A stretch of DNA of 64,000 nt from Acidiphilium multivorum AIU301. Lineage in GTDB: Bacteria > Pseudomonadota > Alphaproteobacteria > Acetobacterales > Acetobacteraceae. A program made the position numbers and the translations under genes. The stretch covers positions 2,853,001-2,917,000 of the forward strand of contig NC_015186.1 of the NCBI RefSeq assembly GCF_000202835.1, given 5' to 3'. The notes under the pieces were generated by a model. It did not search any database. It was not told the origin of the DNA and saw only the letters and a list, made by a program, of their open reading frames with translations. Each line of letters begins with the position of its first letter. The first letter of the stretch is position 1. Below are positions 1,939-51,894 of this stretch, piece by piece.

Positions 1939-1948
1939 CGCATTGACC

Positions 1949-2257: not shown

Positions 2258-2281
2258 TCTTTGCTCCCTCCCCCTTCGCTC

Positions 2282-10419: not shown

Positions 10420-10437
10420 CTCCCGTTCCGCTCCTGG

Positions 10438-12704: not shown

Positions 12705-12707
12705 GAT

Positions 12708-21778: not shown

Positions 21779-21781
21779 TTT

Positions 21782-35404: not shown

Positions 35405-37093
35405 GTAACTGGGGCAAAACTCCGGGCAATTTTGTTTCAAGCTTGGGGGGCGCGAGCTCTGAGTAGATCCGGCAGGTAGGGAACGGCGGCCTGATCGGGG
35501 ACGTGGAGACGATCGCCGAGGTAATCCCAGAACGAGCAGCCGAGCTTGGCGGCGGTGCGCATGAGGCCGAGAAAGGCGTCGCGGCAGTCGCGGCCGAGGG
35601 TCACCTGGGTGCCACCGCTGATCTTGCGCCTTGTGACGTGCAGGCGGATGTCGCGCTCGGAGCCGTTGGTATGGAGCGGGATCTCCGGGCGGTCGAGCAC
35701 GGCCAGCAGTTCCGCCTTGTTGGCGTGCAGGCGCGCAAGCAGGCGGTCGAGGGTGGCGAAGCCGGTGCGCCTTCGGAAGATGCGATCGAAGCGGGCGCGC
35801 AGCTCGCTTCGTCGCCGCGGACTGGGATCGGCACAGTAGGCCTTGAGGTCGCTGTAGTACCACCAGATCAAATTGCGGATATGCGCCTGCGCGGCTCTAT
35901 GCCAGTCGGTGAAGGTGTCGAGCCTGTGCACCAGCCGCTCAGCATGCACCCAGCACAGCGCGTGTCTGCCGACCACGAACTGGCCGGCATCGTCGCTGAC
36001 GATAACGGTGTCGTGCAGGAACCCATGGGCCCGGACGCTGCCCCAGAGCGCGCCTTCGGTGGCGATCCGGACCGGGTCGGGATGGATCTTGAGCGCGCTG
36101 ATGCCGAGCCGGTCCAGATGCGCCTGCCAGGCTCCACGATCGGTGAACGCCTTCTCCGTGGCGTCGGCGAGAGCGCGGATCACCGGGCCGGCGAGCGCGC
36201 GCCCGCGCATGTAATCAAGCGCCATGTCGTTGACGACATAATCGGTGTACCCGGCGCGCAGCAGGTCGAGGAAGTTCAGCCGGCTCTTGCTCTCCCTCGT
36301 GCCGAACCAAGCGAAATCGTCATTGCCGATATGGGTACAGAACCCGTTCAGGCCGGCATGCCGCGCGCCGGTGTCGTCCACAGTCACCCAGGCCGCCGTC
36401 GCAAGCCCCGCCCGCAGGACGTCGCGGTTCTCCGCAAGGAAACCGTCCTGCCCCTCGATCAGCAGCCGCATCACCTGCCGCTTCGAAATCGCCACCCCAA
36501 AGGCCCGCAACTGCGCGGTCAACCGCTCCACCGTCACCTGGCCCTGGTGATGCAGCATCAGTGCGAAACGTCGTAGTTCCGCGCCGAAATGGCCCACCAC
36601 CCCCGCCGGCAGCGGCGCGAGGATCGTCCATCCCTCCGGCGTCACCCAGCGTTCCCGCCGGTAGTGGATCGCTCGCGCCCGCAGAACCAGATCCTGAACC
36701 AGAAAACTCTCATACCCCTTGAAGCGCGAGCCCGCCGGTGCATCCGCTGCGATGGTCCGTTCCTCGATGTCGATCCGGGGCGTGAATTTGCCGCGCCCTT
36801 GGTCCCGTCGCCCTTGCGGCGATGTCCCGCGCTCCATCCCGCTCGGCCGGCTCGGCGGCTTGATGTCGGGAGGGCCCTTCAGCCCCTTCAGACGCGCGAT
36901 CTCCTCGCGCAACGCCGCAATCTGACGCTTCTGCTCCGCGTTCTCCGCCAGCAGCTGAAGCACCAGATGCTTCAGCTCACTCGCAGGCAGATCGTCAAAG
37001 TCGGACGGCTCGGTCACCCGAAGTTTGAATCAGCCAGAACCGTGACCGTGCAAGCAAAAAATCATCCCCCGCCCAGGATTTTGCCCCGGTTAC
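35405..37093. mobile_element. IS66-type insertion sequence, 1689 bp, single ORF
   Basis: Inverted ends begin GTAACTGGGGCAAAACTCC on the left and GTAACCGGGGCAAAATCC on the right (reverse strand). The 8-bp target duplication CCGTGTTC flanks it, the size typical of IS66. It lacks the accessory tnpA/tnpB genes of full IS66 elements, as in the ISBst12-like subgroup. Confidence 0.92.
35437..37017 (-). CDS. IS66-family transposase
   Basis: A 526-residue transposase. The N-terminal leucine-rich coiled segment (LVLQLLAENAEQKRQIAALR) precedes a Pro-rich linker and the DDE domain: AAWVTVDDTGARH, HALCWVHAERLVHRL, and LHTNGSERDIRLHVTRRKISGG around the Glu. Intact, so potentially active. Confidence 0.93.
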   Translation of the reverse strand: MTEPSDFDDLPASELKHLVLQLLAENAEQKRQIAALREEIARLKGLKGPPDIKPPSRPSGMERGTSPQGRRDQGRGKFTPRIDIEERTIAADAPAGSRFKGYESFLVQDLVLRARAIHYRRERWVTPEGWTILAPLPAGVVGHFGAELRRFALMLHHQGQVTVERLTAQLRAFGVAISKRQVMRLLIEGQDGFLAENRDVLRAGLATAAWVTVDDTGARHAGLNGFCTHIGNDDFAWFGTRESKSRLNFLDLLRAGYTDYVVNDMALDYMRGRALAGPVIRALADATEKAFTDRGAWQAHLDRLGISALKIHPDPVRIATEGALWGSVRAHGFLHDTVIVSDDAGQFVVGRHALCWVHAERLVHRLDTFTDWHRAAQAHIRNLIWWYYSDLKAYCADPSPRRRSELRARFDRIFRRRTGFATLDRLLARLHANKAELLAVLDRPEIPLHTNGSERDIRLHVTRRKISGGTQVTLGRDCRDAFLGLMRTAAKLGCSFWDYLGDRLHVPDQAAVPYLPDLLRARAPQA

Positions 37094-37341
37094 CCGTGTT
37101 CTGGCCCAAGGAGAAGCCATAGCCCGGCCAGGAAGCCCACGACATAAGCGCTCACGCCCGCGATGCCAAAATTCCAGCGGGGCGCCAAAATCACTATACC
37201 CATCGAGATGGCCATCAGAACCAAACCGGATCCGGCGCGACGGCCACGCGCAAGCGGGATGATACCGATCAGTCCCCCGAGGCCAAGCGCAAGAACGAAT
37301 AGGTGGGTCAGAAGACCGGCCAGTTGGAACGAGTTCAACAT
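37090..37341 (-). CDS. Small membrane protein whose stop codon comes from the IS66 end
   Basis: An 83-residue protein with two to three hydrophobic segments (LLTHLFVLALGLGGLIGIIPLA; SAYVVGFLAGLWLLLG). No family recognised. The last codons read PEHG, then TAA from the IS end. Across the left IS flank the original would read PEHGK and then TAA, so the insertion removed one residue only and the protein should be functional. It lies 29 bases after the CtaG-like gene and may belong to the oxidase operon. Confidence 0.6.
   Translation of the reverse strand: MLNSFQLAGLLTHLFVLALGLGGLIGIIPLARGRRAGSGLVLMAISMGIVILAPRWNFGIAGVSAYVVGFLAGLWLLLGPEHG
37094..37101. repeat. 8-bp target duplication, right copy
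   Basis: CCGTGTTC, identical to 35397-35404; it lies inside the 3' end of the small membrane protein gene at 37090-37341. Confidence 0.88.
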
Positions 37342-37370
37342 CTATCGAGGAGCGGTTTCGATGGCTGAGA

Positions 37371-38552
37371 TCACGGCTTATCAGACTGCGGTGACTTGGA
37401 CGTCAATCTGACCTCGTGAGCAGACGGGCCATTAAGCGTCCTTGCTCTCATTTGACTAAAAGCCGCAGCGTCGGCTTGGTGGTTCGTCATGTGATCGTAA
37501 ACGACGGCAGCGATCATGGTGCCGATCAACATGAAACCGACAAATCCGACCAATCCGAAAGCGAGGTTGCGGTTATTCCGCCGCTTCCCGACGTGGAATT
37601 CGCTGCCGCGCACCGGCTTGGCGCCGACAAGGGCGATGCGGCGACCGGCGGTGCGGTCTTCGTGGCTGGCAATTCGGTAGAGCGCGATCAGGGCACCGAG
37701 TGCGATCATTGTCGAACCGTCGATCCACATGGTCAGACCGCCGAAGCGCTCGTCGCCCAGCGCCGAAATATGCCAGAAAGGCGCCATACGCCCGTAGGCA
37801 TCGTAGAGGACGACGGATTTGGCGCTGAGATAGAAACCGAACAGAATGAAGTTCATCTCGGCTACAAAGCACATCAGTATGCGAGCGAGCAGCGGCGCGC
37901 CGAGTGGGACTGACCGCGGATCAAGAAGACGGAAGAAAAAGATCAAGCCGCTTGCGAAGAGCGTGACGTGCCAGAGATCGTGGATCAACGGGACGCGCAA
38001 CGAGGCATCGTGAATCCGCGGGATCATCCAGAAATCACTGGTTCCGACGAACACAAGGCTCGCCGGAATCGGCTGGCTGATTGTGGCGAAGGTGCGATGG
38101 AACGCGCCATTACCCATGATGCCGGGCACAAGTTTATGGCGTAGCCACCCCGGCATACCGCGCAACAGGGCCGCTTGCGGGGCTGCCAGCATCAGAAGCA
38201 TGGGTGCGATCATATCGAGCGTCATGTGCTCGACTTGGTGGATGGTAAGGAATTGATCGGAAAAACCTTCGATCGGCGATTGTAGAACCAGGAACAGCAA
38301 CAGTATCGCCGCTACGAAGAAAGCGTCCCGCGCTCCGATCGCTTGTCCGCTCCGGCGCCGACCGCGCACGTACCAGACCACGACATAGACCATCGGAATG
38401 ATAATAATCGGCGTAAACTGCCATACGAGCCAAGGTGTCGCTGCGAGCGCCGCCGCTCCATCCGGCAAGTAGGAGTCGATGACCTCCAATGTTACCCAGC
38501 CAAGGAGGGTAACGGCGAGCCAAATGAAGATTACCGGTCGGTTGCGAGTCAT
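37371..38552 (-). CDS. CtaG-type cytochrome c oxidase assembly factor (caa3_CtaG family)
   Basis: A 393-residue polytopic protein with about nine helices. It has the caa3_CtaG pattern: LTIHQVEHMTLDMIAPMLLM with the conserved His/Glu/His, HDLWHVTLFASGLIFF, and MLAAPQAALLRG. The family is implicated in copper delivery to oxidase. It ends the coxB-coxA-copC-copD series. A 60-residue C-terminal extension carries one more helix (LAFGLVGFVGFMLIGTMIAAV). Confidence 0.82.
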   Translation of the reverse strand: MTRNRPVIFIWLAVTLLGWVTLEVIDSYLPDGAAALAATPWLVWQFTPIIIIPMVYVVVWYVRGRRRSGQAIGARDAFFVAAILLLFLVLQSPIEGFSDQFLTIHQVEHMTLDMIAPMLLMLAAPQAALLRGMPGWLRHKLVPGIMGNGAFHRTFATISQPIPASLVFVGTSDFWMIPRIHDASLRVPLIHDLWHVTLFASGLIFFFRLLDPRSVPLGAPLLARILMCFVAEMNFILFGFYLSAKSVVLYDAYGRMAPFWHISALGDERFGGLTMWIDGSTMIALGALIALYRIASHEDRTAGRRIALVGAKPVRGSEFHVGKRRNNRNLAFGLVGFVGFMLIGTMIAAVVYDHMTNHQADAAAFSQMRARTLNGPSAHEVRLTSKSPQSDKP

Positions 38553-38674
38553 CGTGATCTTTCCACCACGTCAATCCCACGTTTTGCCAGGGACCGGATT
38601 ACGCCCTCGCCTTCGCGATTTTTGCCGTGCTCCGTACCCGAGGTTACGATATCCGTTGCCCGGAAAGCAGCCAT
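38549..38674 (-). CDS. Possible small ORF coupled to the CtaG-like gene
   Basis: A 41-residue frame starting MAAFRATDIVTSGTEHGKN and ending VERSR, whose stop overlaps the next ATG by 4 bases, as for other genes here. No family, no signal peptide or helix. It sits in the 217-bp gap between copD and the CtaG-like gene. The coupling is the only argument; it may be chance. Confidence 0.3.
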   Translation of the reverse strand: MAAFRATDIVTSGTEHGKNREGEGVIRSLAKRGIDVVERSR

Positions 38675-38769
38675 CCCCAATGGACGGCCACCGGCCAGCC
38701 GGTCGACGCTTGAGTGACAAGGCGTCAAGACAGGCGATGCGCTAGTGAGAACGTTACTCAACGAGTTTG

Positions 38770-39705
38770 CTAACCGGTCATATTCATTTTCGCGATGTCC
38801 ATGGCGGGCGGAAGTTCCATCAGAATGCCTGCGAGCACGACGACGGTGAGGCCGATCGCTGTTTCGATCGCAATGGATTTGTATAGAAAATCCTTGGCGC
38901 GCTGACCGCGCAACGTCGTAAGGCGGGACGTCTGCCATCGGTTCATCGCTGCGATCGCCAAGAGGATCAGGAATAATGCAAGTTTTCCGCCCGCGACCAA
39001 TCCATAGGCCGTGCCGGTCAAGGCGGGGATGCTGCCGATCAGATACCAGCCCTGAATCGCCGCCGTCACGGCGATGGTGATCACGCAGGCGATGCCCAGG
39101 CGGGAAAACCACGTCGCCGCGCGAAAGGCCGCTTCGGGCGTGACGGCTTTGACGACGATGAGAAGGGAAACCAGGCCGCCGAGCCACAGTCCCGCGGCGA
39201 GCAGATGCAGGATCAGGGTCGCGAGCAGCAGATGTCCCTCCGCCCCGCCCATGGCGGCACCGTGCCCAAGCCCGGCCTGCAACGCGACGGCGACGGCGGC
39301 AAAGCTTCCGGCCAACAGGACGCGACGGTTACTCTGTCCGTGGCCGAATACCAACACGGCACCAGCCATCAAGATCATCCGGATAATGAGAAGGTGACCA
39401 AAGTTCGTGTCGCGCAGCAACGGCAGAATGGCATCAAAACCAGAGGTGATCTGGTTTGATCCCGAGGCATAGATGGCTTCGCAGAGGAGCCAGATCAAAC
39501 CAGCGATGACCGCCACAGCGAAACTTGCACGTAGAAACTTGACGATTGCGTTCTGAGCGTTGCGTGCGGCCGATGATTTGTCACGCTGCAAGCCGGCCTG
39601 AGCAAATAGGCGATAACCTGCGGTGGTGCCGAGAATGGCGAGCGAAGCCGCGACATGAATGCCGCGGGCGGCACCTCGAACGAGCAGATCGGTGGAGACG
39701 CTCAC
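38770..39705 (-). CDS. copD: CopD-family copper resistance membrane protein
   Basis: A 311-residue inner-membrane protein with eight or so helices, including GIHVAASLAILGTTAGYRLF, GHLLIIRMILMAGAVLVFG, ATLILHLLAAGLWLGGLVSL and TAAIQGWYLIGSIPALTGTA. These match the CopD fold, thought to bring copper into the cytoplasm with CopC. The GTG at 39705 overlaps the copC stop (GTGA) and is chosen over an upstream extension that is antisense-like and hydrophilic. Confidence 0.88.
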   Translation of the reverse strand: MSVSTDLLVRGAARGIHVAASLAILGTTAGYRLFAQAGLQRDKSSAARNAQNAIVKFLRASFAVAVIAGLIWLLCEAIYASGSNQITSGFDAILPLLRDTNFGHLLIIRMILMAGAVLVFGHGQSNRRVLLAGSFAAVAVALQAGLGHGAAMGGAEGHLLLATLILHLLAAGLWLGGLVSLLIVVKAVTPEAAFRAATWFSRLGIACVITIAVTAAIQGWYLIGSIPALTGTAYGLVAGGKLALFLILLAIAAMNRWQTSRLTTLRGQRAKDFLYKSIAIETAIGLTVVVLAGILMELPPAMDIAKMNMTG

Positions 39706-40070
39706 GGCGTCACTTGAAAACTGTAACGTCCATGCGTTCGATGCCCGTCGGATGCGAGCGCATGCCAAAGAACAGTATAGCGCCCGGCTCGATTTGATCG
39801 ACGCAGATGGATGACCAGTGTCTTGGGGTCGTTGCGTTCTAACGTCGCCTCGCCGTGACTGACTTGTTTGCCATTCGGTCCTTGGACCACGATACCGCTG
39901 AAATGCCGGTTGACGGTCTCGGTGAAGTTGATTGAGACCTCGCCGGGAAGCAGTTTCAGCACAGCACCCGACGGTGGCGTTTCGTGAGCAGGATAGGCAT
40001 GGGCCATTGCCAATACCGGTACCGCAAGAAGAGCCGCGACGACGGGAGCTGACTTCAGGGATTTTCTCAT
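39702..40070 (-). CDS. copC: Periplasmic copper-binding protein CopC
   Basis: A 122-residue protein with a signal peptide ending AMA near residue 22. The mature protein begins with the copper-ligand His (HAYPAHETPPSGAVL), has the beta-sandwich pattern, and ends with the second ligand region (LASDGHRTHGRYSFQV). This is the Cu(II)-only CopC type, without the Met-rich loop. It lies between coxA and copD. Confidence 0.92.
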   Translation of the reverse strand: MRKSLKSAPVVAALLAVPVLAMAHAYPAHETPPSGAVLKLLPGEVSINFTETVNRHFSGIVVQGPNGKQVSHGEATLERNDPKTLVIHLRRSNRAGRYTVLWHALASDGHRTHGRYSFQVTP

Positions 40071-40121
40071 ATTACCTCGCTTTGCATATTGCCTTGACTT
40101 CCAGGATGGCTGGCGATGACC

Positions 40122-41735
40122 TCATCGGATCACCGGCACATCCTCGAAGGTGTGGTGCGGCGCGGGGGACGGCACGGTCCATTCCAGCGTCGTCGCACCC
40201 TCGCCCCAGTAATTGTCGGCCAGAGCCTGCTTGCCGGTGAAAATACGGAACAGCACGTAGAAAAAGATCAGCGTGCTGATCCCGGAGATGATCGTTCCCA
40301 CCGACGAGACGTAGTTCCAGCCTGCGAACGCGGTCGGGTAGTCGGGGTAGCGGCGCGGCATCCCGGCGAGGCCGAGGAAATGCTGCGGGAAGAAGGTCAG
40401 GTTCACGCCGATGAAGAAGGTCCAGAAATGCAGCTTGCCGGCCCATTCGGGATATTGCCGGCCGTACATCTTGCCGATCCAGTAATAGAACCCGGCGAAG
40501 ATCGCGAATACCGACCCCATCGACAGCACGTAGTGGAAATGCGCGATGATGAAATAGGTGTTGTGCAATTCGGTATCGAGCCCGGCATTGGCGATCACCA
40601 CGCCGGTCGCACCGCCGACCACGAACATGAAAATCATGCCGATCGCCCAGAGCATCGGCGTCTTCAGCTCGATCGACCCGCCCCACATCGTCGCGATCCA
40701 GGAAAACACTTTTACCCCGGTCGGCACCGCGATGACGAGCGTTGCCGCCTCGAAATACACTTTCGAGTCCACCGAAATGCCCGAGACGAACATGTGATGC
40801 GCCCAGACCACGAAGCCGACGAAGCCGATCGCGACCATCGCATAGACCATGCCGAGATAGCCGAAGATCGGCTTTTTCGAGAAGGTCGAGACCACGTGGC
40901 TGACAATGCCGAACGCCGGCAGAATCATGATGTAGACCTCGGGGTGGCCGAAGAACCAGAACAGATGCTGGAACAGCACCGGATCGCCGCCGCCGCCCGG
41001 CTCGAAGAACGAGGTGCCGAAATTGCGGTCCATGATCAGCATGGTGATCGCGCCCGCGAGCACCGGAATCGCCAGCAGCAGCAGGAACGCGGTCACCAGG
41101 ATGCCCCAGACGAACAGCGGCATCTTGTGCATCGTCATGCCGGGGGCGCGCATGTTCAGGATGGTCGCGATGAAGTTGATCGCGCCGAGCAGCGAGGAAA
41201 TCCCGGCCAGATGCAGCGAGAACAGGGTGAAATCGACCGCCGGCCCAGGCTGGTAGGTGATGTCGGACAGCGGCGGATACAGCGTCCAGCCGATCCCCGA
41301 ACCCGCGCCCACCATCAGGCCGAGATTGACGAAAATGAAGCCCATGAACAGGAACCAGAAGCTCATGTTGTTGAGCCGCGGGAACGCCATGTCCGGCGCG
41401 CCGATCATCATGGGCACGAACCAGTTGCCGAACCCGCCGATCAGCGCCGGCATCACCATGAAGAAGATCATCAGCAGCCCGTGCGCGGTGACGATCGCGT
41501 TCCAGGTCTGGCCCGAGGTGATCAGCGTGTTGTTCGGATGCATCAACTGCATCCGCATGATTTCCGACAGCACCCCGCCTTCGATCCCGGCGATGATCGC
41601 CCAGGTGATGTAGAGCGTGCCGATATCCTTGTGGTTCGTGCTCATCAGCCAGCGGCGGACGAACCCCGGATAATGGGCGTCATGCGCATGGGCGGCGTGG
41701 GCGTGATCGTCCGAGGCGGCGGTGGACATGGTCAT
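40122..41735 (-). CDS. coxA: Cytochrome c oxidase subunit I (aa3, A-type)
   Basis: A 537-residue heme-copper oxidase subunit with 12 helices. Heme and CuB ligands are in [32 protein letters not shown] and [11 protein letters not shown]. The D-pathway Asp/Asn ([12 protein letters not shown]) and the helix-VI Glu (GHPEV) are intact, so a proton-pumping A1-type enzyme is expected. The N-terminus is His-rich ([12 protein letters not shown]). It follows coxB by 25 bases. No subunit III gene is in the window. Confidence 0.96.
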
Positions 41736-41760
41736 GGTCTCCTGATGATCGCCGGCACCG

Positions 41761-42717
41761 TCATTGCGATGCGGCTATCGGCGCCGCGCTGGCGAGCGCG
41801 ACACCCGGATGCGAGAGCGAGGCGGCCTTGGCGGCTGCTTCCGCCAGCACTTCATATTTATGCACCTTCGGCACGTTGCCTTGCGCCGCGTCCTTCTTGG
41901 CCTCGACGAGCCAGGCCTGGAACTGCTTCATCGGCAGGGCGACGATCTCGATCGGCATGTTATCATGGTTCAAGCCGCAAATCTGGTTGCATTCGCCATA
42001 ATAAACCCCCGGCGCGTCGATTTGCGTCCATTGGCGCCAGTACTGACCGGGAATCGCATAGCGCTGCACGCCGAGCGAGGGGACGAAGAAACTGTGTATT
42101 ACGTCCTTGCTGGTGATCTGGAACACCACTTTCTTGCCGGCCGGCAGCACCAGCGGATGGTTGACGGAAAGCTGGCGGATCTCGCCCGGTTTCAACTGGT
42201 TCGGCGGAATCACATAGGAGGTGAAATCGACTCCCTTGGCACCGAGATAGTCGTATTCCCAGAACCATTGATGGCCGATCACCCGCACCGTCATGTAGCG
42301 GTGCTTATAGTTGGATTGCTGATAGATCATGTTGAGCGAGGGCACGAAAATCACGATCAGCAGCAGCGCGGGCACCACCGTCCACAGCACCTCGATCACC
42401 GTATTGTGCGTGGTGGTGGTCGGCACCGGGTGCCGGGACGCGTGGAACCGCACCATCACGATGCCGAGCAGCACGCCGACCAGCGCGACCACGGCGAACA
42501 TGATCCACAGCACGAACTGCATCATCCAGTCGATCGCCTTCGCGTTCGGACTTGAAGGCGGCTGGAACCACCACTCCCACGGGCGCGGCGCATGGATCGG
42601 AAACCCGGCAGCATTTTTTACGAATTCCGCCGCCGCGGCGTCCCGGAAGGACAGCATCAAAGCAATCGAGATAAATCCGCCTATCCAACCTATCATGCGC
42701 TTCGTCACTGTACTCAT
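41761..42717 (-). CDS. coxB: Cytochrome c oxidase subunit II
   Basis: A 318-residue protein with a signal peptide, two membrane helices ([39 protein letters not shown]) and the CuA cupredoxin domain. The CuA ligands are complete: HSFFVPSLG for His and [14 protein letters not shown] for the two Cys, Glu, His and Met. No fused cytochrome c domain. The C-terminus is Ala-rich. The ATG at 42717 ([11 protein letters not shown]) is preferred to 42786. Confidence 0.95.
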
Positions 42718-42830
42718 CGCTATGATCCGGGTCCCTACCATCGGGGATCCTCGATGGATTGTGTGAAGAGCTATACGGCCCCACAAAAATTAGGCATATG
42801 TGGGGCCGGTTTGGCGTCATGTCGGCGCGA

Positions 42831-43478
42831 TCACTGCCGATGCGGTAGTCTGGGTTGGGCGACCATGCGAAGATAGGGCCGCAGGGTTCTCCAGCCCTCC
42901 GGGAAGCGGGTCTTTGCGTCATCGTCGGAGAGGCTTGGGAGGATGATGACCTCATCGCCATCATTCCAGTTCACCGGCGTCGCCACCTTGTGCGCATCGG
43001 TGAGTTGCAGGCTGTCGATGACCCGGATGATTTCGTCGAAGTTTCGGCCGGTGCTGGGCGGATAGGTGATGATGAGCCGAACCTTTTTGTTGGGATCGAT
43101 GATGAACACGCTGCGCACCGTGACCGTGGGGTCGGCTTCCGGGTGGATCATGCCGTAGAGATGGGAGACCTTGCGATCGGCATCGGCCAGAAGCGGAAAA
43201 TTGAGTGATTGACCTTGGGTTTCCTTGATGTCGTCTTCCCAGCCCTTATGGCTGTCGGCAGGATCGACCGAAAGCCCGATCGGCTTGGCGTGTCGTTTGT
43301 CCCATTCGGGCTTCAACCGCGCGACTTCGGCAAGTTCGGTGGTGCAGACCGGTGTATAATCCTTCGGGTGGCTGAACAGCACACCCCAGGAGTCGCCGAG
43401 CCATTGGTGGAATTTGATCGTGCCTTGGGTGCTGACTTGCTCGAAGTCGGGTGCGATCTGACCAAGTTGGATACTCAT
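42831..43478 (-). CDS. 1-Cys peroxiredoxin (Prx6-like)
   Basis: A 215-residue peroxidase. The active site is C45 in HPKDYTPVCTTEL, followed by GLSVDPADSHKGWEDDI, FPLLADADRKVSHLYGM and the long C-terminal Prx6-type domain (LTDAHKVATPVNWNDGDEV). It reduces peroxides in the cytoplasm. The ATG at 43478 has GGAA 8 bases upstream. It lies 113 bases before coxB and could be the first gene of the oxidase unit. Confidence 0.92.
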   Translation of the reverse strand: MSIQLGQIAPDFEQVSTQGTIKFHQWLGDSWGVLFSHPKDYTPVCTTELAEVARLKPEWDKRHAKPIGLSVDPADSHKGWEDDIKETQGQSLNFPLLADADRKVSHLYGMIHPEADPTVTVRSVFIIDPNKKVRLIITYPPSTGRNFDEIIRVIDSLQLTDAHKVATPVNWNDGDEVIILPSLSDDDAKTRFPEGWRTLRPYLRMVAQPRLPHRQ

Positions 43479-43521
43479 GCGCGTATTCCTTTCATTTTGA
43501 TTTGACTGAATGAAGCTGATT

Positions 43522-43881
43522 TCAAGTGACATTCTGACTTTGACGGTGGGCGATCGACGGGACAGCGGACGACGGCATCGAGTCACCCCGGCGGACTGTG
43601 CCATCACCATTCTGGATCGCTGCGTCGATGGCTGGTGCGGCGTTCGATTTCGATTTGTTCATGCCCATCATGCAGAGCCCGAGGCCGCACATGACAAGAC
43701 AGGGCAGCAGCGACAGGATGATCGGCGCCAAACCGGCGGCAACCAGCCAGCCCCAGCCGCCAACGGCAAGACCACCGCCGGCGATGACAACAAGGCCGAC
43801 GACGATCGCAATCCGTCCGGTCAAGAAGCGCCGCCAGCCGGATCGGCGCGTAGTGCCGGTGTTATCGCAACATGCATTCAT
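43522..43881 (-). CDS. Small Cys- and Met-containing membrane protein
   Basis: A 119-residue protein. It starts MNACCDNTG with a vicinal Cys pair, then two membrane helices (IAIVVGLVVIAGGGLAVGGW; APIILSLLPCLVMCGLGLCM). The second holds three Cys at 4- and 5-residue steps and ends MMGMNKSKSN. A polar tail follows. Family not recognised. The Cys/Met pattern in a helix suggests metal or thiol chemistry. It lies 18 bases after the TlpA-like gene. Confidence 0.65.
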   Translation of the reverse strand: MNACCDNTGTTRRSGWRRFLTGRIAIVVGLVVIAGGGLAVGGWGWLVAAGLAPIILSLLPCLVMCGLGLCMMGMNKSKSNAAPAIDAAIQNGDGTVRRGDSMPSSAVPSIAHRQSQNVT

Positions 43882-43899
43882 GGTTGAAAACTCCTTGGT

Positions 43900-44520
43900 T
43901 CAGGTGGGTGATTTCGACGAGATCACATGGGTCAGGAATCTGACCATGCGCGGGCTGTCCCAGACGGCGGTGCCGGATCGGAGACCGATCGCCTCGCCAT
44001 CCGAGTTGATCAGAAAGCTGACCGGAATTTCCTGAAGATTGAGGATTTCCATGGCGCTGCCGCTCGGATCGAGAAAAATGCCAAGATGCTGGATCTTGAA
44101 TCGGGTGTAGAATTCCTTGACCGGAGCCAATCCGCCGGTATCGATCGACACGGGAACGATCTGGAAGTGCGGACCGCCGAGTTTGGCCTGTAGCCGATCC
44201 AGCGTGGCCATCTCCTTTTGGCAGGGGATGTACCAGGTCGCCCAGATGCTGAGCAGCACGAACTTGCCGTGAAAGGATGCCAGCGAGATGTGCTGACCGG
44301 CTTCATCCAGGAACCTGAGTGCCGGAAATGTTTTTGGTGCAAAAAGCTGGAGTGGCGGATGTGCGGGGACCGCGGCGGATGCCGAGCCAGACGTCACGAT
44401 CGCATCGCCGGTCACCAGAAGGGACAGTCCGAGCAATTCACGCCGCGAGGCGGGCAATCGAGACCAAATCCCGTCTTCTGGCCGACACGCAGTCCTGGTG
44501 TTCCGTCTTTGGTTATTCAT
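43900..44520 (-). CDS. TlpA-like thioredoxin with Tyr in place of the first active-site Cys
   Basis: A 206-residue exported protein (hydrophobic segment LLGLSLLVTGDAIV) with the TlpA fold: LASFHGKFVLLSIWATW, then YIPCQKEMATLDRLQAKLGG, and LQEIPVSFLINSDG. The motif is WYIPC, against WCIPC in its neighbour at 44513. The attacking Cys is therefore absent, so ordinary disulfide exchange is not expected. The frame is intact and overlaps the neighbour by 8 bases. It could be a copper-binding or regulatory paralogue, or an early pseudogene. Confidence 0.88.
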   Translation of the reverse strand: MNNQRRNTRTACRPEDGIWSRLPASRRELLGLSLLVTGDAIVTSGSASAAVPAHPPLQLFAPKTFPALRFLDEAGQHISLASFHGKFVLLSIWATWYIPCQKEMATLDRLQAKLGGPHFQIVPVSIDTGGLAPVKEFYTRFKIQHLGIFLDPSGSAMEILNLQEIPVSFLINSDGEAIGLRSGTAVWDSPRMVRFLTHVISSKSPT

Positions 44521-45073
44521 GGGAAAGCCCGGCTATCTGATGGGTCATAAATCTGACCACCGAAGGACTGTCCCAGACCACGGCGCCGGTTTCGCGGCCG
44601 ATCTGCCTGCCGTTCGGGTCGATCAGAAAACTGGTCGGGACACCCTCTAGATTGAGGACCTGCATGGCGCTGCCGCTCGGGTCGAGAAAGATGCCGAGAT
44701 GTTTGATCTTGATCTCGGCATAGAATTTCCTGACCGCTTTCAGCCCACCGGAATCGATCGAGACCGGCACCACTTCGAAATGCGGACCGCCAAGTCGGGC
44801 TTGGAGCCGGTCCAAAGTCGGCATTTCCTTGCGGCAGGGGATGCACCAGGTCGCCCAGATGTTGAGGAGTAAAAGTTTGCCGTGGAAATCGGCGAGCGTG
44901 AGGGGATGACCGGATGCGTCGGAGAATTTGAATGTCGGCAACGGCTTTGGTGTGGTGATATAAAGCGGCGGGGCGTTCGGGATGGCGGCTGCCCCGGATC
45001 GCGGCAGGCCAAGCGCCGCGCCGGAAGCTGCGAGGGCAAGAAAATCACGCCGTGAGGATGGCGACAGGGTCAT
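44513..45073 (-). CDS. TlpA-like periplasmic thioredoxin
   Basis: A 186-residue exported thioredoxin. A Tat-like signal (RRDFLALAASGAALGLPRSG) is followed by LADFHGKLLLLNIWATWCIP, CRKEMPTLDRLQARLGG and LEGVPTSFLIDPNG. WCIPC is intact. It is a tandem paralogue of the gene at 43900 (shared DRLQAKLGGPHF/DRLQARLGGPHF and LGIFLDPSGSAM). Next to SCO it may keep copper-site cysteines of CoxB or SCO reduced, which is the role known for TlpA. Confidence 0.9.
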   Translation of the reverse strand: MTLSPSSRRDFLALAASGAALGLPRSGAAAIPNAPPLYITTPKPLPTFKFSDASGHPLTLADFHGKLLLLNIWATWCIPCRKEMPTLDRLQARLGGPHFEVVPVSIDSGGLKAVRKFYAEIKIKHLGIFLDPSGSAMQVLNLEGVPTSFLIDPNGRQIGRETGAVVWDSPSVVRFMTHQIAGLSHE

Positions 45074-45792
45074 TGGGCGATCGCCTTTTTCATGATGTGG
45101 ACGAGTTGCGGTACCGTGATGGACACCGGGAACAGATTCTCGAACTTTCCGTTCGGCGCCATCAAATAAATGAAGGTTGAATGACTGATCAGGCTCTGGC
45201 CGGAGGCTTCGTGATCGGTCGTGTTGAAATAGGCGTCGTATTCGCGGGCGACCTTGGCGATCTCCGGTACCGGCCCGGTGAGACCGATGATCTTGTTGCT
45301 GAACTTGGGCAGATATGTCCTAAGCACCGCCGGCGTATCATGGGTGGGATCGACGGTGATAAAGACGGGAGCAACATGTTTGGCGAGCTTCCCCAGCGCG
45401 TTCATCATGATCGCCATTTTTTCGAGTGTCAGAGGGCAGTCGTCCGGGCAGCGCGAGTAACCAAAATAGACCAGCATCCAGCGCCCGCGAAAACTTGCCG
45501 GTGTCATCGCCTGGCCGAACTGGTTTGTCAGGGTGAACGGGCCGCCGATCGGCGCGCCGGGAGAGATCGCCGAGTCGGTGGTGGTTGCCAGCCGGCCATG
45601 CGGCCTGCTCCAGCCGAGCAGATGCGCCAGAGTCTCGAGCGTATTGTGTTCCGTCACCCCGATAATGCCGGGATCGATGGCGATGGCGGTCAGTGCCGCA
45701 CCGAGGCCAATCGCCCCGCCGATCGCGATCCGCCGCCCGATCCGGTGACCACGCCGGGGCTGATAATCTGAATATTCGCTCCGGTCGGTCAT
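45070..45792 (-). CDS. SCO1/SenC-family copper chaperone
   Basis: A 240-residue protein anchored by an N-terminal helix (IAIGGAIGLGAALTAIAID). The SCO thioredoxin fold has the metal motif YFGYSRCPDDCPLTLEK (CxxxC) and the His ligand in SLISHSTFIYLM. SCO proteins deliver copper to the CuA site of subunit II, encoded 2.4 kb downstream on the same strand. It overlaps the neighbours on both sides by 4 bases. Confidence 0.93.
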   Translation of the reverse strand: MTDRSEYSDYQPRRGHRIGRRIAIGGAIGLGAALTAIAIDPGIIGVTEHNTLETLAHLLGWSRPHGRLATTTDSAISPGAPIGGPFTLTNQFGQAMTPASFRGRWMLVYFGYSRCPDDCPLTLEKMAIMMNALGKLAKHVAPVFITVDPTHDTPAVLRTYLPKFSNKIIGLTGPVPEIAKVAREYDAYFNTTDHEASGQSLISHSTFIYLMAPNGKFENLFPVSITVPQLVHIMKKAIAQ

Positions 45793-46403
45793 ACGGGATG
45801 GGCCTTGCCTTCATAGAGATAATTATGCGTCCGCGGACCCGGCATCCGGTCATGCGACAGGCGCTCCATGTGAAACCCGGCCTCCATAATCAACGCGTCG
45901 ATCTTGCGGTTGATATGGCAGCCGCCGGCGATCAGTCCCCAGGGGCGATCGAGCCGATCCTGCCAGCGCGCAATGCCGGGTTCCGGCGCGCGGCCATGCT
46001 CGATGAACAGAAGCGTGCCGCCAGGCTTGAGCACCCGCCGCGCCTCGCGCAGCGCCTGCACCGCGTTCGGGATGGTGCAGAGCGTCCAGGTGGTGACGAC
46101 ACTATCAATGCTTGCAGTGTCGATCGGCAAAGTCTCCGCCGAAGCCTCGATCAGTTCGACTGGCACGATGGCGCTCGTGACACGATCCTGCGCCATGCCC
46201 AACAAGGCGGACGAAGGATCGACGCCGGTGACCGATGTCACACCGGCGCCATAAAGCGGCAGGTTGAGGCCGGAGCCGACGCCGAATTCCAACACGCGTC
46301 CCTGTGCCGCGCCGATGACGCGCGTGCGGAATGGCACCAGCGCCTGCTGCCGCATCATAAAATTCAGAACATGAGGAAGAATCCTTCGGTCGTAGAAATT
46401 CAT
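45789..46403 (-). CDS. Class I SAM-dependent methyltransferase
   Basis: A 204-residue cytoplasmic methyltransferase: motif I VLEFGVGSGLNLPLYG, acidic VTGVDPSSALLG, SIDSVVTTWTLCTI and VLKPGGTLLFIEHG. It resembles UbiE/phospholipid N-methyltransferase-like enzymes (type 11). The substrate cannot be read from sequence. Its 4-base overlaps with SCO and the DsbD-like gene make it part of the same operon, an unexplained but apparently fixed member. Confidence 0.85.
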   Translation of the reverse strand: MNFYDRRILPHVLNFMMRQQALVPFRTRVIGAAQGRVLEFGVGSGLNLPLYGAGVTSVTGVDPSSALLGMAQDRVTSAIVPVELIEASAETLPIDTASIDSVVTTWTLCTIPNAVQALREARRVLKPGGTLLFIEHGRAPEPGIARWQDRLDRPWGLIAGGCHINRKIDALIMEAGFHMERLSHDRMPGPRTHNYLYEGKAHPV

Positions 46404-48553
46404 CGTGCGGCCTCCGTACGGGGTGGTGGTCCGGCCGCGCGCCGGAATGCCTGCATGACGACGCCCGGTGTCAGCAGAGACGGCAGCATGATGCCGGATG
46501 GTGCGCCGGGGCCGTAGACCACGTCGAGCGGCACTCCATACCGTCCGAAGCTGCGCAAATAGGCGGTGATCGGCGCACTGGGGCGGGTCCAGTCGGCGCG
46601 CATCGCGACCACGCCGGGCGCGCGCAACTGCCGCGCCACCGGGTTACGGTCCAACACCGTGAGCGCATTGACCTTGCAGATCAGGCACCATGCGGCGGTG
46701 ACATCAACGAAGACAATCTTGTTTTCGCCAATCAACGTGACGATGCGGGCCTGGTCGAATGTCTGCCAGATCGTGTTGTCGGCGCGTTGTCTGGTGGGTG
46801 CCAAGCTGGCCGGGGTGACCGACGGTTCGATAATGGCAAGGGCGACGGCAGCAATCACCGCGAAGGCTCCGATGCGGCGCAATCGGCCCTGGCTATTCCC
46901 GAGACGATGACGCCAGAACAGCAGCGCAAGCATGACGAGAATTGTAGCGCCGATGACCAGTGCGGCCATGGGCGAGACGACCGCTTCGATGATCCAGACC
47001 AGCCAGATCGCCGTGCCCAGCAGGGCAAAACCGAGAAGAACGCGGAGCACAACCATCCAGCGCCCGGGCTTTGGCATCCAGCGCACCAGGCCGGGGAAAG
47101 CCGCGACCAGCAGGTAGGGCAGCGCCATGCCGATCCCGAGGGCTGCGAAAATGCCCAGAATGACCAGTGGCGCGCGAGCGAGCGCGAAACCGACCGCGAC
47201 GCCGATAAAAGGTGCGGTGCAGGATGTGGCAAGAAGCGTCGCAAAGACGCCGGTCAGAAACGCTGCGGTTCTGGCACTGGCTTCGCTGCCCATGGTCGCG
47301 GTTCGTGCCGCAAGCCCGGGGAGCGGGATCGGCAGCCACTCCCACAGGCTTGCGGCGAACAGCGTGGTGATCGCCGCCATCGCGCCGAGAAACCAGGGTT
47401 GCTGGAACTGGATGCCCCAGCCGATTGTGGCACCCACCGCCTTCAACACGATGATAATGAAGGCGAGAGCCGCGTAGGAAACAATGATCCCCAGCGCGGT
47501 TGCCAGTAGCGTGATCCGTAAATCCCGCCGCGCGCCGCCCGATGCTCCGGCGAAGCTCATGAGTTTGAGCGACAGGACCGGGAGCGTGCAAGGCATCACG
47601 TTCAGGATCAGACCGCCGAGCAGCGCGATCGCGAGGATCAGCATGATGCTCACACCGGTGCCATGTGCGGGCACGGGGCCGAACACCGGGGTTGCCGAAA
47701 ACGCCGCCGCACCCAATCCGTTTTCCAGCGTGAATCGCAGTTTTCTTCCGGCGATGGCGGCCGCTTTTTCGCCCTTGAGGGTCACACTCAGCACGCCGCG
47801 CCGATGTCCGGTATCGAGCCAGATTTTTGGGGCACCCGGCGTTGCGGTCGAAAAATGGTTCTGGATGAACAGATCGGGGCGCGACAGGCGGGCGCCATGC
47901 GCATCGACAACAAGGGACAATATCGTCGTATTCTTGTGTCCAGGCGATTTGGACACCACCACTTGCAACAGGCTCAACCCCGCTTGAGCCAGCGTGCCTG
48001 GCACGCGTGTCCAGGCCTTGGCGATCAGGGGCGCTTGCGGTCCGGGGCTCGCGAGGCCCGCAGGCAGGGGAAGCACAAGCTTGGCGGTGTAGGGGATGCA
48101 GATCGTCTTGCACGCCGAATAATGCACGAGCGCGTGCAGAACCATCGGCGCGCCGGGGTGTTTCGGCACGATCGATAGCGGCAGGACAACGCCGTGCTCG
48201 TAGCCCTGGGTAACCAGGCCATAGAGCAGATAGCGGTGCGGTGCAGGCCAGTACATTTTGGTCGATTTGACGTTGGTCGATCCCGCCCAGTCGATCGAGG
48301 GCGGAATGCCCGCGGCACCCGGATTGCGCCAATAGGCGTGCCAGCCACGCTCGAGCCTGATCTGCAAACCTGCGTCGATCTGCGGTGCGTTGCCCACAGC
48401 CTCGGTCGCGGTGATCAACCGCGCCGCCGCGTGCCGGTTGCCGACCCATTGGGTGCTTGCGGCTAAAGCAGATGTTATCGAAAACACCCCCAGCATGAAT
48501 GTCAGGATGAGTATCAGAATGGCGGCAAGACGCGGCTGCGACCGGATGATCAT
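46400..48553 (-). CDS. DsbD/ScsB-type thiol:disulfide interchange protein
   Basis: A 717-residue protein. A signal peptide leads to an N-terminal periplasmic domain (with YSACKTICIPYTAKLVL holding a CxxxC), a CcdA-like membrane core of eight helices with Cys in LNVMPCTLPVLSLK and TSCTAPFIGVAVG, and a C-terminal thioredoxin domain with TAAWCLICKVNAL. It passes electrons from the cytoplasm to periplasmic thioredoxins; ScsB types are linked to copper tolerance. The ATG at 48553 overlaps the upstream gene's stop by 4 bases and gives a proper signal peptide. Confidence 0.9.
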   Translation of the reverse strand: MIIRSQPRLAAILILILTFMLGVFSITSALAASTQWVGNRHAAARLITATEAVGNAPQIDAGLQIRLERGWHAYWRNPGAAGIPPSIDWAGSTNVKSTKMYWPAPHRYLLYGLVTQGYEHGVVLPLSIVPKHPGAPMVLHALVHYSACKTICIPYTAKLVLPLPAGLASPGPQAPLIAKAWTRVPGTLAQAGLSLLQVVVSKSPGHKNTTILSLVVDAHGARLSRPDLFIQNHFSTATPGAPKIWLDTGHRRGVLSVTLKGEKAAAIAGRKLRFTLENGLGAAAFSATPVFGPVPAHGTGVSIMLILAIALLGGLILNVMPCTLPVLSLKLMSFAGASGGARRDLRITLLATALGIIVSYAALAFIIIVLKAVGATIGWGIQFQQPWFLGAMAAITTLFAASLWEWLPIPLPGLAARTATMGSEASARTAAFLTGVFATLLATSCTAPFIGVAVGFALARAPLVILGIFAALGIGMALPYLLVAAFPGLVRWMPKPGRWMVVLRVLLGFALLGTAIWLVWIIEAVVSPMAALVIGATILVMLALLFWRHRLGNSQGRLRRIGAFAVIAAVALAIIEPSVTPASLAPTRQRADNTIWQTFDQARIVTLIGENKIVFVDVTAAWCLICKVNALTVLDRNPVARQLRAPGVVAMRADWTRPSAPITAYLRSFGRYGVPLDVVYGPGAPSGIMLPSLLTPGVVMQAFRRAAGPPPRTEAAR

Positions 48554-49056
48554 CGGCAGGTCTCGACGGACAATGCGCAAGGGCGGCGATACGCGAACCA
48601 AAGCGCCACTCCCGGCACGACGACCCATTGCAGGAAAGGCGATAGACCGGTGCCGAGCACCGGCAGAACCGGCATCGCCGGGCTATAGGCCCACGCGCCG
48701 CGCACCACGACGTTGAGCCACTCGCTGAACATTGTATAGGCGACACCGCTCGTGAGCGTGACGAGAACGGCACGCCCGCCATTTGCAAACGGCCATTGCC
48801 GCCCGGCCGCAATGATCCCGAACAGCATCGTGACGGAGCCGATCAGCAGATCGCCGATCCAGCAATGCAGCACGGCAAAAGCAAGATAGGCGAAGCGTGC
48901 CGTCCGCCAGATCGTGTAAAACGGCAGTTGCATCGTTTCCCAGACAAGATTGCCGATCGCCATGGTGACGAAATACCGGCGCAGCACGGTGCGGCCAGCC
49001 ACGGTGGTCAACTGCGTTGGCAACCCTAACATCGCGAGACGGCAATTGATGCGCAT
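48550..49056 (-). CDS. Four-helix membrane protein of unknown function
   Basis: A 168-residue protein with four hydrophobic segments (FVTMAIGNLVWETMQLPFY; VLHCWIGDLLIGSVTMLFGI; VLVTLTSGVAYTMFSEWLNV; FLQWVVVPGVALWFAYR). Conserved-looking polar residues in helices (WETMQLP, HCWIGD, SEWLNV) suggest a transport or ligand role. No family recognised. Translationally coupled to the DsbD-like gene. Confidence 0.65.
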   Translation of the reverse strand: MRINCRLAMLGLPTQLTTVAGRTVLRRYFVTMAIGNLVWETMQLPFYTIWRTARFAYLAFAVLHCWIGDLLIGSVTMLFGIIAAGRQWPFANGGRAVLVTLTSGVAYTMFSEWLNVVVRGAWAYSPAMPVLPVLGTGLSPFLQWVVVPGVALWFAYRRPCALSVETCR

Positions 49057-49122
49057 GTCGTTTGTCCAGAAGGTAGACGGCCCGGTGACGCGGAGAGCAG
49101 CGCGTCCCCGGGCGCCGATCCG

Positions 49123-49449
49123 TTACGACTTTTTCGGGGCGGCTTTGCCCATCATGGTGCCATGATGAGCGCCCATCGTGCCATGACCCATGTTGTCGGC
49201 CATCTTGTTCATCACGCGGGTGCAGGCGTTCATCATCGCCATCATGCCCATCATGCCAGCCATACCACCGCCCGCCATGCCGGCACCGGTCTTGCCCTTA
49301 CCGGTCATCTTGCCCCCCGACATCATGCCGCCGCTGTTCGTGGTTTTGGCCTGTGGCGCGGGTGTGGTCGCGGCATTGGCGATCATCGGCGCGGCGAAGA
49401 CCGCGACGGACATTGTGGCCGCGATGAGTGAAGTCCTGAATTTCAGCAT
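49123..49449 (-). CDS. Exported Met-rich protein
   Basis: A 108-residue protein. A signal peptide (SLIAATMSVAVFAAPMIANA) is followed by Met/Gly/Lys-rich repeats (GGMMSGGKMTGKGK; MAGGGMAGMMGMMAMMNACT) and a Met/His end (MADNMGHGTMGAHHGTMMG). A single Cys lies in MNACTRVM. No fold predicted; probable Cu(I) buffer in the periplasm. It lies 35 bases after the DUF411 gene. Confidence 0.75.
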   Translation of the reverse strand: MLKFRTSLIAATMSVAVFAAPMIANAATTPAPQAKTTNSGGMMSGGKMTGKGKTGAGMAGGGMAGMMGMMAMMNACTRVMNKMADNMGHGTMGAHHGTMMGKAAPKKS

Positions 49450-49484
49450 TTGTGAGTTCTTTCTGTGATTGCCGAGCACAATGC

Positions 49485-49970
49485 TCAATTGACGGTTGCG
49501 AACACGACCGGTTTCGGCGTGCCGACCAGATAGACCGCGATCGGCTCGGCTTTCATGCCTGCCATCGCCGGCATTCCCGGCAGACCGACCGGCATTCCCG
49601 GAATCGCCAGCCCTTTGGCCGAGGACGGTTCGGCCAGGAATTTCTTGATGAGCGGGGCCGGAATGTGGCCTTCGAAGACATGGCCGGCGAGCTTGGTCAA
49701 ATGACAACCGACCAGCGACTTAGGAACGCCGGCTGCCAAAGTGACCTGCTCGAGATTGGGTGTTGGAATCACCGTCACCTTGAAGCCGTTCTTGTCGAGA
49801 TATTTGGCATAGGCTTCGCAGCACGAGCAGGACGGATCCTTGTAGAGCGTTGCCTTGATCGGCGCGGCGGCAAGCGCCGAGACCGGCGCCAAGGCGGCCA
49901 AGGCTACGGTGGCATTGAGCAGGGTGCGTCGGTTCATCGGTTTGACTTTCATCTTTGGTTTGAGGGTCAT
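49485..49970 (-). CDS. DUF411-type periplasmic metal-binding protein
   Basis: A 161-residue exported protein. The signal (MNRRTLLNATVALAALAPVS) precedes the DUF411 core: ATLYKDPSCSCCEAYAKYL with a CxCC metal motif, VPKSLVGCHLTKLAGHVFEG and the end VFATVN. The family is repeatedly found beside copper-resistance genes. The Met-rich loop GMPVGLPGMPAMAGMKAE is notable. The ATG at 49970 overlaps the multicopper oxidase stop by 4 bases; 49952 and 49937 are alternatives. Confidence 0.85.
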   Translation of the reverse strand: MTLKPKMKVKPMNRRTLLNATVALAALAPVSALAAAPIKATLYKDPSCSCCEAYAKYLDKNGFKVTVIPTPNLEQVTLAAGVPKSLVGCHLTKLAGHVFEGHIPAPLIKKFLAEPSSAKGLAIPGMPVGLPGMPAMAGMKAEPIAVYLVGTPKPVVFATVN

Positions 49971-51382
49971 GCCACGCGGATCACCGTCATCAGCCCGTTC
50001 GCCTGGTGCTCGATGACGTGACAATGGAACATCCAGTCGCCCGGATTGGTGGCGGCGAAGGCGATTTCGACCGTATCCTTCGGGCGCAGGATCACGGTGT
50101 CGCGCAGGTGCGGATAAGGCTCTTTCACACCGTTGCGCGACAGCACCGAGAAACTGTAGCCGTGCAGATGCATCGGGTGCCAGAACGCGGTGTGGTTCAC
50201 CAGCGTCAGCAGCGCGGTCCGGCCGAGCGGAATCGTGAAGATCGGCGCCATGCCGTCACTCGTCCGGCTGCCGTCCTTGATACCCCAGATGGGAGCGGGC
50301 TTGCCGTCGGCTGTCATGCCCATGCCGCCCATCATGCCGCCAACGATATCCAGATGGTGGCGGATCGGGTTGCTGAGATCGGGCTTGGGCACTGGATTTG
50401 GCGGCAGGATGATCGGCTGTGCCGGCAAGGAGCGCCGGCGCGGTTGCTGCTTCGTGTAAGCCAGCGTCACCAGCCGATAGGTCGCATGCCGGCCGTAGAA
50501 ATCGTCGATGACGGGATAATCGCGGCCGGGCTGGCCGGTCGTATCGAGCTGCAGATCGACCCGCTGGGCCGGTGCAATGATGACCTGTCCGTTGGCGGGC
50601 TGGAAAGGATGACAAGGCTGACCGTCGAGCGCGATCACCGTGACCCGATGCCCCGTGAACCGCAGTGCCATGAACCGGGCGAGGCAGGCATTGACCATTC
50701 GGATGCGGAGCCGTTCCCCGGCACGCAGCTTGATCGGTCCGGGGACGACACCGTTGATGGTCACTACGCTGCCGATCCGCCCACTCATCGCCGCTTCCAT
50801 CGGCGTGTCGAAACCCGGCACGAACTGATCGTTCGGCTCGAACGCCCAGTCCTGGAGCACCCAGAGCAATTCGCGGTCGAACGGTGGCGGTTCCGGCTCT
50901 TTGACGATCAAGGCCCCGGCCATGCCGCGACCCATCTGGTGCGCCGTATGTTCGTGCGGGTGATACCAGAAGGTGCCGGCATCGGGTGGGGTAAACGCGT
51001 AGTGGAAATCGGCACCCGGCCGGATTGGCTTCTGGGTCAGGAACGGCACGCCGTCCATATCGTTCGGCAGCCGGATGCCGTGCCAGTGCACCGTGGTGCC
51101 CTGGTCGAGGCCGTTGGTCACTGTGGATTGGAATGGGACGGCCTGGTGCATGGTCACCACCGGGCCGGACACCGTTCCGTTATAGGCGAGAACATCGGTT
51201 TTGGGGCGGTTTGCACCCAGGATCGCGGCCTTGGCAGGAGCTGGCCGCAGATCGGCGGTGATGGCACGGCTGGTTGCCGCGTCGGCAGGCGCCGCCCAGG
51301 GTAGCACGGCAGCCGAGGCGGCAGCGCCGCCCAGCTTCAGCAGAGTCCGTCGTCGCACGACGGACGGATATTCGATCGTCAT
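49967..51382 (-). CDS. Multicopper oxidase (CueO/CopA-laccase type)
   Basis: A 471-residue Tat-exported oxidase (RRRTLLKLGGAAASAAVLPW). All four copper-ligand segments are present: TVHWHGIRLP, FWYHPHEHTAHQ, FWHPMHLHGYSF, and HCHVIEHQANGLMTV with the type 1 Cys and axial Met. A short Met-rich loop (GGMMGGMGMTADG) lies before domain 3, as in CueO where it binds Cu(I). It probably oxidises Cu(I) in the periplasm. First of a run of copper genes. Confidence 0.93.
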   Translation of the reverse strand: MTIEYPSVVRRRTLLKLGGAAASAAVLPWAAPADAATSRAITADLRPAPAKAAILGANRPKTDVLAYNGTVSGPVVTMHQAVPFQSTVTNGLDQGTTVHWHGIRLPNDMDGVPFLTQKPIRPGADFHYAFTPPDAGTFWYHPHEHTAHQMGRGMAGALIVKEPEPPPFDRELLWVLQDWAFEPNDQFVPGFDTPMEAAMSGRIGSVVTINGVVPGPIKLRAGERLRIRMVNACLARFMALRFTGHRVTVIALDGQPCHPFQPANGQVIIAPAQRVDLQLDTTGQPGRDYPVIDDFYGRHATYRLVTLAYTKQQPRRRSLPAQPIILPPNPVPKPDLSNPIRHHLDIVGGMMGGMGMTADGKPAPIWGIKDGSRTSDGMAPIFTIPLGRTALLTLVNHTAFWHPMHLHGYSFSVLSRNGVKEPYPHLRDTVILRPKDTVEIAFAATNPGDWMFHCHVIEHQANGLMTVIRVA

Positions 51383-51540: not shown

Positions 51541-51894
51541 TCAGCTCAGCGCGAGGGATCGAGGTGGCGGCGCGTCCGGTATGGGACGCAGACCGAGATG
51601 GGATGACGCGGCTAGCGGGTGATACGTCGTCAACACAGTGTCGATGAGCGCGACAGCGCTTGCCCCGCTTATCGGTAATGCCACCGCACTGGTGCAGGTC
51701 GGGGCGATGCAGCGCGCGCCCATGGGACGATGGTGCGCCTGGCCCGGACTGTGATGACCCGAGCAATCATGACCAATGCAGACAGGTGCCGTCGCGACCG
51801 CCTGTGTCATCGGCATCGCGCGCGCGAACGCCGGCACGCTCGTGGCGAGCACGAGAGCAAGGGCGATCAGGAAGTGTGTCATGGTTCGGAACAC
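51541..51894 (-). CDS. Small exported Cys/His-rich protein
   Basis: A 117-residue protein. A signal peptide (THFLIALALVLATSVPAFA) is followed by VCIGHDCSGHHSPGQAHHRP and CIAPTC, which give four Cys and five His within 45 residues, then a Pro-rich end (PIPDAPPPRSLALS). This resembles small copper-associated exported proteins (CopL/DUF2946-like), but the assignment is loose. ATG 51882 is an alternative start. It lies between merT and the multicopper oxidase on the same strand. Confidence 0.6.
   Translation of the reverse strand: MFRTMTHFLIALALVLATSVPAFARAMPMTQAVATAPVCIGHDCSGHHSPGQAHHRPMGARCIAPTCTSAVALPISGASAVALIDTVLTTYHPLAASSHLGLRPIPDAPPPRSLALS

Follow-up and report, generated by a model that had tools for sequence, protein, structure and literature searches.

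In the cutFOG operon of Rhodobacter capsulatus, as far as the sources cited here describe it, an exported leader protein with a cysteine motif and a C-terminal proline motif is followed by a multicopper oxidase and a protein in the CutG position. Rhodobacter CutF is reported to sense extracytoplasmic copper and to gate translation of the multicopper oxidase (PMC9973294), and relatives of the CutF-like proteins are described as carrying CxxxC or a variant of it (PMC8456105). A second kind of system is that of the orphan oxidase subunits, with CcoN4 of Pseudomonas aeruginosa as an example: a core subunit is encoded apart from its partners and alternative enzyme forms result (PMC5697931). Here we describe a locus that resembles both: a copper island, carried by a conjugative element in the chromosome of Acidiphilium multivorum AIU301, that includes coxB and coxA, the genes for two core oxidase subunits. 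The element lies in a 64,000-nt stretch, referred to as the window (G000:C6:2853001-2917000), on a contig of 3,749,411 bases in a genome of 4.21 Mb and 9 contigs. The strain, from Matsuo, Iwate, Japan, is reported to have 8 plasmids and a genome of 4.21 Mb (PMC7677001). Judged by comparative gene order, coxBA is a later insertion into an older copper and thiol cluster. The explanation that we favor, and that we put slightly above an even chance, is that the pair provides a copper-inducible spare set of core oxidase subunits, assembled with subunit III and heme A from the host.

The copper island and its coxBA insert

On the element, a series of sixteen genes, all on the minus strand, starts with a multicopper oxidase and ends with a CtaG-type factor. 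The earlier note, a reading of this DNA made from its letters alone, had placed the genes that it named on one strand between traG and the relaxase, and the Pfam assignments agree. A further gene, absent from that list, heads the island before the multicopper oxidase.

51541..51894, minus strand: CutF-like exported leader protein, two Cys pairs and C-terminal PDAPPPR (motif and position; no Pfam family at 0.001)
49967..51382, minus strand: multicopper oxidase in CutO-like position (three Cu-oxidase domains over cut-off)
49485..49937, minus strand: DUF411 protein in CutG-like position (PF04214 over cut-off)
49123..49449, minus strand: Met-rich exported protein (sequence; no Pfam family)
48550..49056, minus strand: small membrane protein conserved in the cluster (synteny; no Pfam family)
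46400..48553, minus strand: DsbD/ScsB-type thiol reductase (DsbD_N, DsbD_TM and Thioredoxin_7 over cut-off)
45789..46403, minus strand: class I methyltransferase (Methyltransf_11)
45070..45792, minus strand: SCO1/SenC copper chaperone (PF02630)
44513..45073, minus strand: TlpA-like thioredoxin 1 (AhpC-TSA, Redoxin)
43900..44520, minus strand: TlpA-like thioredoxin 2, CxxC as WYIPC (Redoxin; sequence)
43522..43881, minus strand: small membrane protein conserved in the cluster (synteny; no Pfam family)
42831..43478, minus strand: 1-Cys peroxiredoxin (AhpC-TSA, 1-cysPrx_C)
40105..42750, minus strand: 2.65-kb insert holding coxB-coxA (junction alignment; missing from three sister islands)
41761..42717, minus strand: coxB with its own leader (COX2, COX2_TM; leader search)
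40122..41735, minus strand: coxA (COX1, 531 bits; motifs)
39702..40070, minus strand: copC (PF04234)
38770..39705, minus strand: copD (PF05425)
37371..38552, minus strand: Caa3_CtaG-type assembly factor (PF09678, 140 bits)

The tight packing claimed for these genes holds for most of the island: there are five 4-base overlaps (membrane protein/DsbD, DsbD/methyltransferase, methyltransferase/SCO, SCO/TlpA1 and CopC/CopD), TlpA1 and TlpA2 overlap by 8 bases, and the remaining gaps are of 18-66 bases, with the starts of the DUF411 and Met-rich genes set by eye. The exceptions are 113 bases before coxB and 217 before CtaG.

The copper theme of the gene set is borne out, and the head-gene product fits the description of CutF-like proteins in PMC8456105 by motif and place. 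Of two marks of a cutFOG-type operon, a leader before the multicopper oxidase is present by motif and place; the other, a stem-loop that would hide the ribosome-binding site of the oxidase gene, was looked at in a single-sequence fold. Relatives of the head-gene product precede the multicopper oxidase in the sister islands (58-100%) and in Acidocella (30-33%). The order of leader, multicopper oxidase and CutG-position protein is that of the R. capsulatus operon; as described there, however, the cysteine pair is CxxxC and the gap between leader and oxidase gene is 40 bases, whereas here the pairs are CxxxxC, the gap is 158 bases and a long tail of thiol, SCO and oxidase genes follows downstream.

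The evidence for insertion comes from comparison of the 14-kb stretch with 13 Acidiphilium genomes, its own included (four of them less than 90% complete), with 23 candidates scored per genome. Close copies of DsbD (at least 79%) occur in four of these genomes and at five places: the window, A. iwatense KCTC 23505 (G196), the metagenome-assembled genome SKS3.bin60 (G302) and, twice, Acidiphilium sp. PA (G263). In three of these five islands coxBA is absent at the same point. SKS3.bin60 aligns to query positions 3-8647 and 11293-12630, the two matching blocks being about 10 bases apart, and both PA copies omit the same part. The SKS3.bin60 island also lacks CtaG; its type IV secretion system (T4SS), island and relaxase share one contig, which identifies it as the same kind of element without coxBA. 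The insert keeps the strand and order of the surrounding island genes, and a search for repeats in 36900-43000 found no clean duplication at it.

For a view beyond the genus, the best 80 of 575 loci with a DsbD relative were compared, four of which are the Acidiphilium islands. Among the 76 others, multicopper oxidase, DUF411 and DsbD are combined at 11 loci, all of them lacking a CoxA match; this absence is weak evidence, because only the best 80 loci were named and many stop at contig ends. Two near misses from the same 80, L193 and L195, have CoxA about 7 kb from the DsbD relative with no match to multicopper oxidase, DUF411 or SCO and were not counted. G153 and G232 have partial relatives, SCO-TlpA1 pairs (80-86%) that lack a DsbD. 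The copper clusters of Acidocella (L172, L173, L174 and L178) keep the order of leader, multicopper oxidase, DUF411, DsbD, methyltransferase, SCO, TlpA and small protein. Unlike the present island, they have no match to CoxA, CoxB, peroxiredoxin, CopD or CtaG and no second TlpA in order, and CopC appears only as a 49-residue piece in L172.

Donor of the insert and possible exchange between copies

It is well supported, from identity, synonymous divergence (dS) and flanking bases, that a relative resembling A. iwatense contributed the insert from its chromosome. Its DNA identity to A. iwatense contig C67 is 94.5% over 1647 bases, while the chromosomal flanks of coxBA are 74-83% alike between A. 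multivorum and A. iwatense. For coxA, dS is 0.022 to C67 (255 codons), 0.124 to a 35-codon piece on contig C73 and at least 0.434 to each other computable copy, two copies being saturated. A footprint independent of C67 lies in the 13 bases after the coxA stop, which match the A. iwatense chromosome at 12 of 13 positions in the insert and at 13 of 13 in the A. iwatense element, and which occur at none of 12 other coxA loci compared (11 coxBA loci and the second coxA of G304). A CoxB tree places the window together with A. iwatense (support 94/99, not starred). The first ~140 bases of the insert, encoding the CoxB leader, match the two elements only; within the genus, the best match to them elsewhere is 31 bases (E 0.003), and no chromosomal source was found.

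Two other sources were ruled out. The host's own coxBA stands at 83.7% DNA identity and a coxA dS of 0.471. A distant origin is excluded by the closest CoxA matches beyond the element, which are within the genus: the best match per genome is 89-92% in five of six same-genus genomes, the sixth being A. iwatense (G196), whose coxA is cut by contig ends. The best plasmid match to CoxA has 68.9% protein identity, and although 78 plasmid records gave some match, none of them covers 80% of the island.

A. iwatense is reported in PMC10715153 to lack a complete operon for this oxidase (an 'incomplete COX operon'). In its assembly, the chromosomal coxB and coxA up to codon 255 are on C67, and C73 carries the end of coxA and, after it, sequence that matches the ctaB-coxC region of the host; some 740 bases of coxA between these pieces were not found in the assembly. 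The last 123 bases of contig C87 recur in C67, and C118 and C73 start with the same 123 bases. Contigs C67 and C73, which stop and resume inside coxA, and contig ends that have exactly 123 bases in common with the element contigs are the pattern expected of two near-identical copies, and the middle of C67 may therefore be either. The published incomplete operon thus looks like contig breaks at a duplicated coxBA, and the duplicate bears on that statement as far as the source gives it.

Divergence from C67 is unequal along the insert. The dS value is 0.246 for coxB and 0.022 for coxA; the coxB body shows 38 mismatches out of 751 and coxA 6 out of 765 (Fisher p 3e-7, with the hypervariable coxB end excluded from both). 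The longest exact stretch shared with C67, inside coxA, is 523 bases; for six other chromosomal loci the corresponding length does not exceed 67. This contrast suggests that the element and chromosomal copies of coxBA have exchanged tracts. A wider role is conceivable, in which the conjugative copper island serves as a shuttle for alleles of the aa3 oxidase, coxBA being taken from one Acidiphilium, moved to another and its tracts exchanged with the resident coxBA. We regard this as possible but on balance doubtful; if true, selection for copper resistance would also move and remodel the aa3 oxidase.

Oxidase function and competing explanations

The oxidase genes on the element are intact, as had been claimed: both reading frames are open, CoxA retains in alignment the heme and CuB histidines with the GHPEVY, AHHMF and AHFHY motifs, and CoxB retains the CuA site CNQIC with the following H and M. 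These motifs we take to be the heme, CuB and CuA sites of an A-family (aa3-type) cytochrome c oxidase. By parsimony, the CoxB branch of the element carries 18 replacement and 15 silent changes and that of A. iwatense 12 and 8, with 25 cells set aside (13 ambiguous, 7 third-state and 5 thinly covered); these small counts give no sign of decay in the element CoxB relative to the chromosomal copy. Every Acidiphilium CoxA row shown (L038-L043) has HNTYF where the usual form is HDTYY. Further coxA genes, 78-87% to that of the window and with no nearby CoxB match, occur in Acidiphilium at L125:8303-9844, L126, L042 and L128, the last with a peroxiredoxin relative (70%) about 6 kb away.

The missing subunit III and heme A genes were correctly noticed in the earlier note, the island genes that were scanned including no subunit III, ctaA or ctaB. 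A complete oxidase locus of the host's own lies at C6:2668512, with coxB, coxA, coxC, SURF1 and, where ctaB would be expected, a gene of the UbiA family; two CtaA-family genes lie elsewhere, at C6:1428651-1430665. The coxBA of the element, about 225 kb from that of the host, is thus not the only oxidase locus, a result that the earlier note had named as one that would refute its reading. Since the host supplies coxC, ctaB, SURF1 and CtaA, the element would bring the copper side (CoxB, CoxA, SCO and CtaG) and leave heme A and subunit III to its host. Cox11 (PF04442) was matched in none of the 13 Acidiphilium genomes and, of 14 control genomes, in Caulobacter only; Caa3_CtaG is present in all 13. 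Downstream of the host cox locus, a carboxypeptidase Taq (M32) gene (L034:4761-7648) is apparently split by an IS110-type transposase.

From this anatomy we infer copper induction, pairing with host CoxC and a benefit. By analogy with Rhodobacter, the CutF-like leader would sense periplasmic copper, upon which the multicopper oxidase and downstream genes would be made. The multicopper oxidase, DUF411 protein, CopC and CopD would handle or detoxify copper, DsbD and the TlpA-like proteins would hold the cysteines of SCO and CoxB reduced, SCO would load CuA and CtaG would help with CuB. Element CoxB and CoxA, joined with host subunit III and heme A, could then form a second aa3 oxidase maintained under copper stress. 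The likeness to CcoN4 has its bounds: as described in its source, CcoN4 is cbb3-type, chromosomal and outside a copper island, and the pairing proposed here is a prediction.

Several observations weigh against a captured spare core. The 113-base gap between peroxiredoxin and coxB contains an inverted repeat (read by eye), missed previously; this gap and that of 217 bases before CtaG make a single transcript over the whole stretch uncertain, and coxBA may be off the island's transcript. Caa3_CtaG is assigned as a CuB assembly factor tentatively in the source (PMC9145763). The A. iwatense contigs break inside coxBA, and some of C67 may belong to the element copy. Furthermore, between A. multivorum and A. 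iwatense the relaxase of the element is just 88% alike, against 97-98% for the island and 97-99% for the T4SS; the two elements are not simply one copy and have also recombined. Parts of a serine recombinase lie in two frames, 103-708 and 570-1874, the second (the only part scanned) being PF07508, and the enzyme may be broken by this split. Finally, no end of the element was found in the 20 kb of flank on each side, which are a patchy mix of element-like, repeated and core-like pieces.

A plainer account holds that coxBA is a passenger, caught by chance recombination and of no benefit of its own, with exchange with chromosomal copies keeping its frames open. The three islands that are evidently viable without coxBA, the gap ahead of coxB and the sharply unequal dS of coxB and coxA to one contig would all fit it. 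The intact frames and ligand motifs, the insertion in the same strand and order, and changes on the element CoxB branch that do not exceed the pattern of the A. iwatense branch speak against it, and we consider it unlikely. The earlier note's view, that a single package evolved as a unit for detoxification and oxidase assembly, fares much worse. Order and strand are in its favor, and SCO, CtaG and the thiol proteins are plausible oxidase helpers; nevertheless, three of the five Acidiphilium islands and all 11 comparable outside loci lack the oxidase genes concerned, and the nearest kin of coxBA is a chromosomal locus. One origin for the whole is largely refuted already, and we hold it to be very improbable. 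Least credible of all is that coxBA provides the element with DNA homology by which it integrates into the host chromosome or exchanges with it, as the long exact stretch in coxA might hint, given that the element has its own conjugation genes, sits far from the host coxBA and is compared with a contig that may be mixed through the repeat.

The conjugative element and its significance

The mobile context of the copper and oxidase genes is upheld by conjugation genes on both sides of them.

2282..14735, minus strand: conjugation genes TrbI, CagX, TrbL, CagE_TrbE_VirB, TrbC, T2SSE ATPase and TraG (family matches)
57505..59736, minus strand: RlxS-like relaxase (NF041267, 667.8 bits, below the curated cut-off of 850)

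TraG (12708-14735) and the relaxase bracket the copper genes, and three other Acidiphilium genomes have the first group at 86-99% DNA identity. The set sought for an integrative and conjugative element, namely relaxase, coupling protein and T4SS ATPase, is present, with the relaxase under its curated cut-off; a TraF-like peptidase also scores below its own. The block that separates island and relaxase, not noted earlier, encodes an amino-acid permease, a mercuric reductase homologue and a TlpA-like protein. A sensor kinase/response regulator pair (14915-17067) is also on the element, as are two heavy-metal P-type ATPases, both with a MerR-type regulator nearby (19322-23195 and 29554-32333). 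The host chromosome has a second, diverged T4SS-like region at another place (G000:C6:483968-496158; 77-84% DNA), and an insertion-sequence-like stretch of about 1.09 kb (L037:328-1415) has more than 20 near-identical copies in the genome. As for viral carriage, 15 stretches fitted a pattern and none of the 15 was confirmed by tblastn.

Core respiratory subunits are usually viewed as inherited vertically with their operon. Here, two copper-binding core subunits stand on a conjugative element, in a copper-resistance gene order and with copper-loading factors alongside, the rest being left to the host. The copper island itself is of a known kind; what appears new is that it captured an oxidase core and that the donor left a trace, and a literature search of open-licence PMC papers turned up no account of an Acidiphilium copper island with coxBA. 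The pair can be regarded as a natural case of a mobile, possibly hybrid oxidase. In acid-mine A. multivorum, genes of core respiration may travel together with those of metal resistance.

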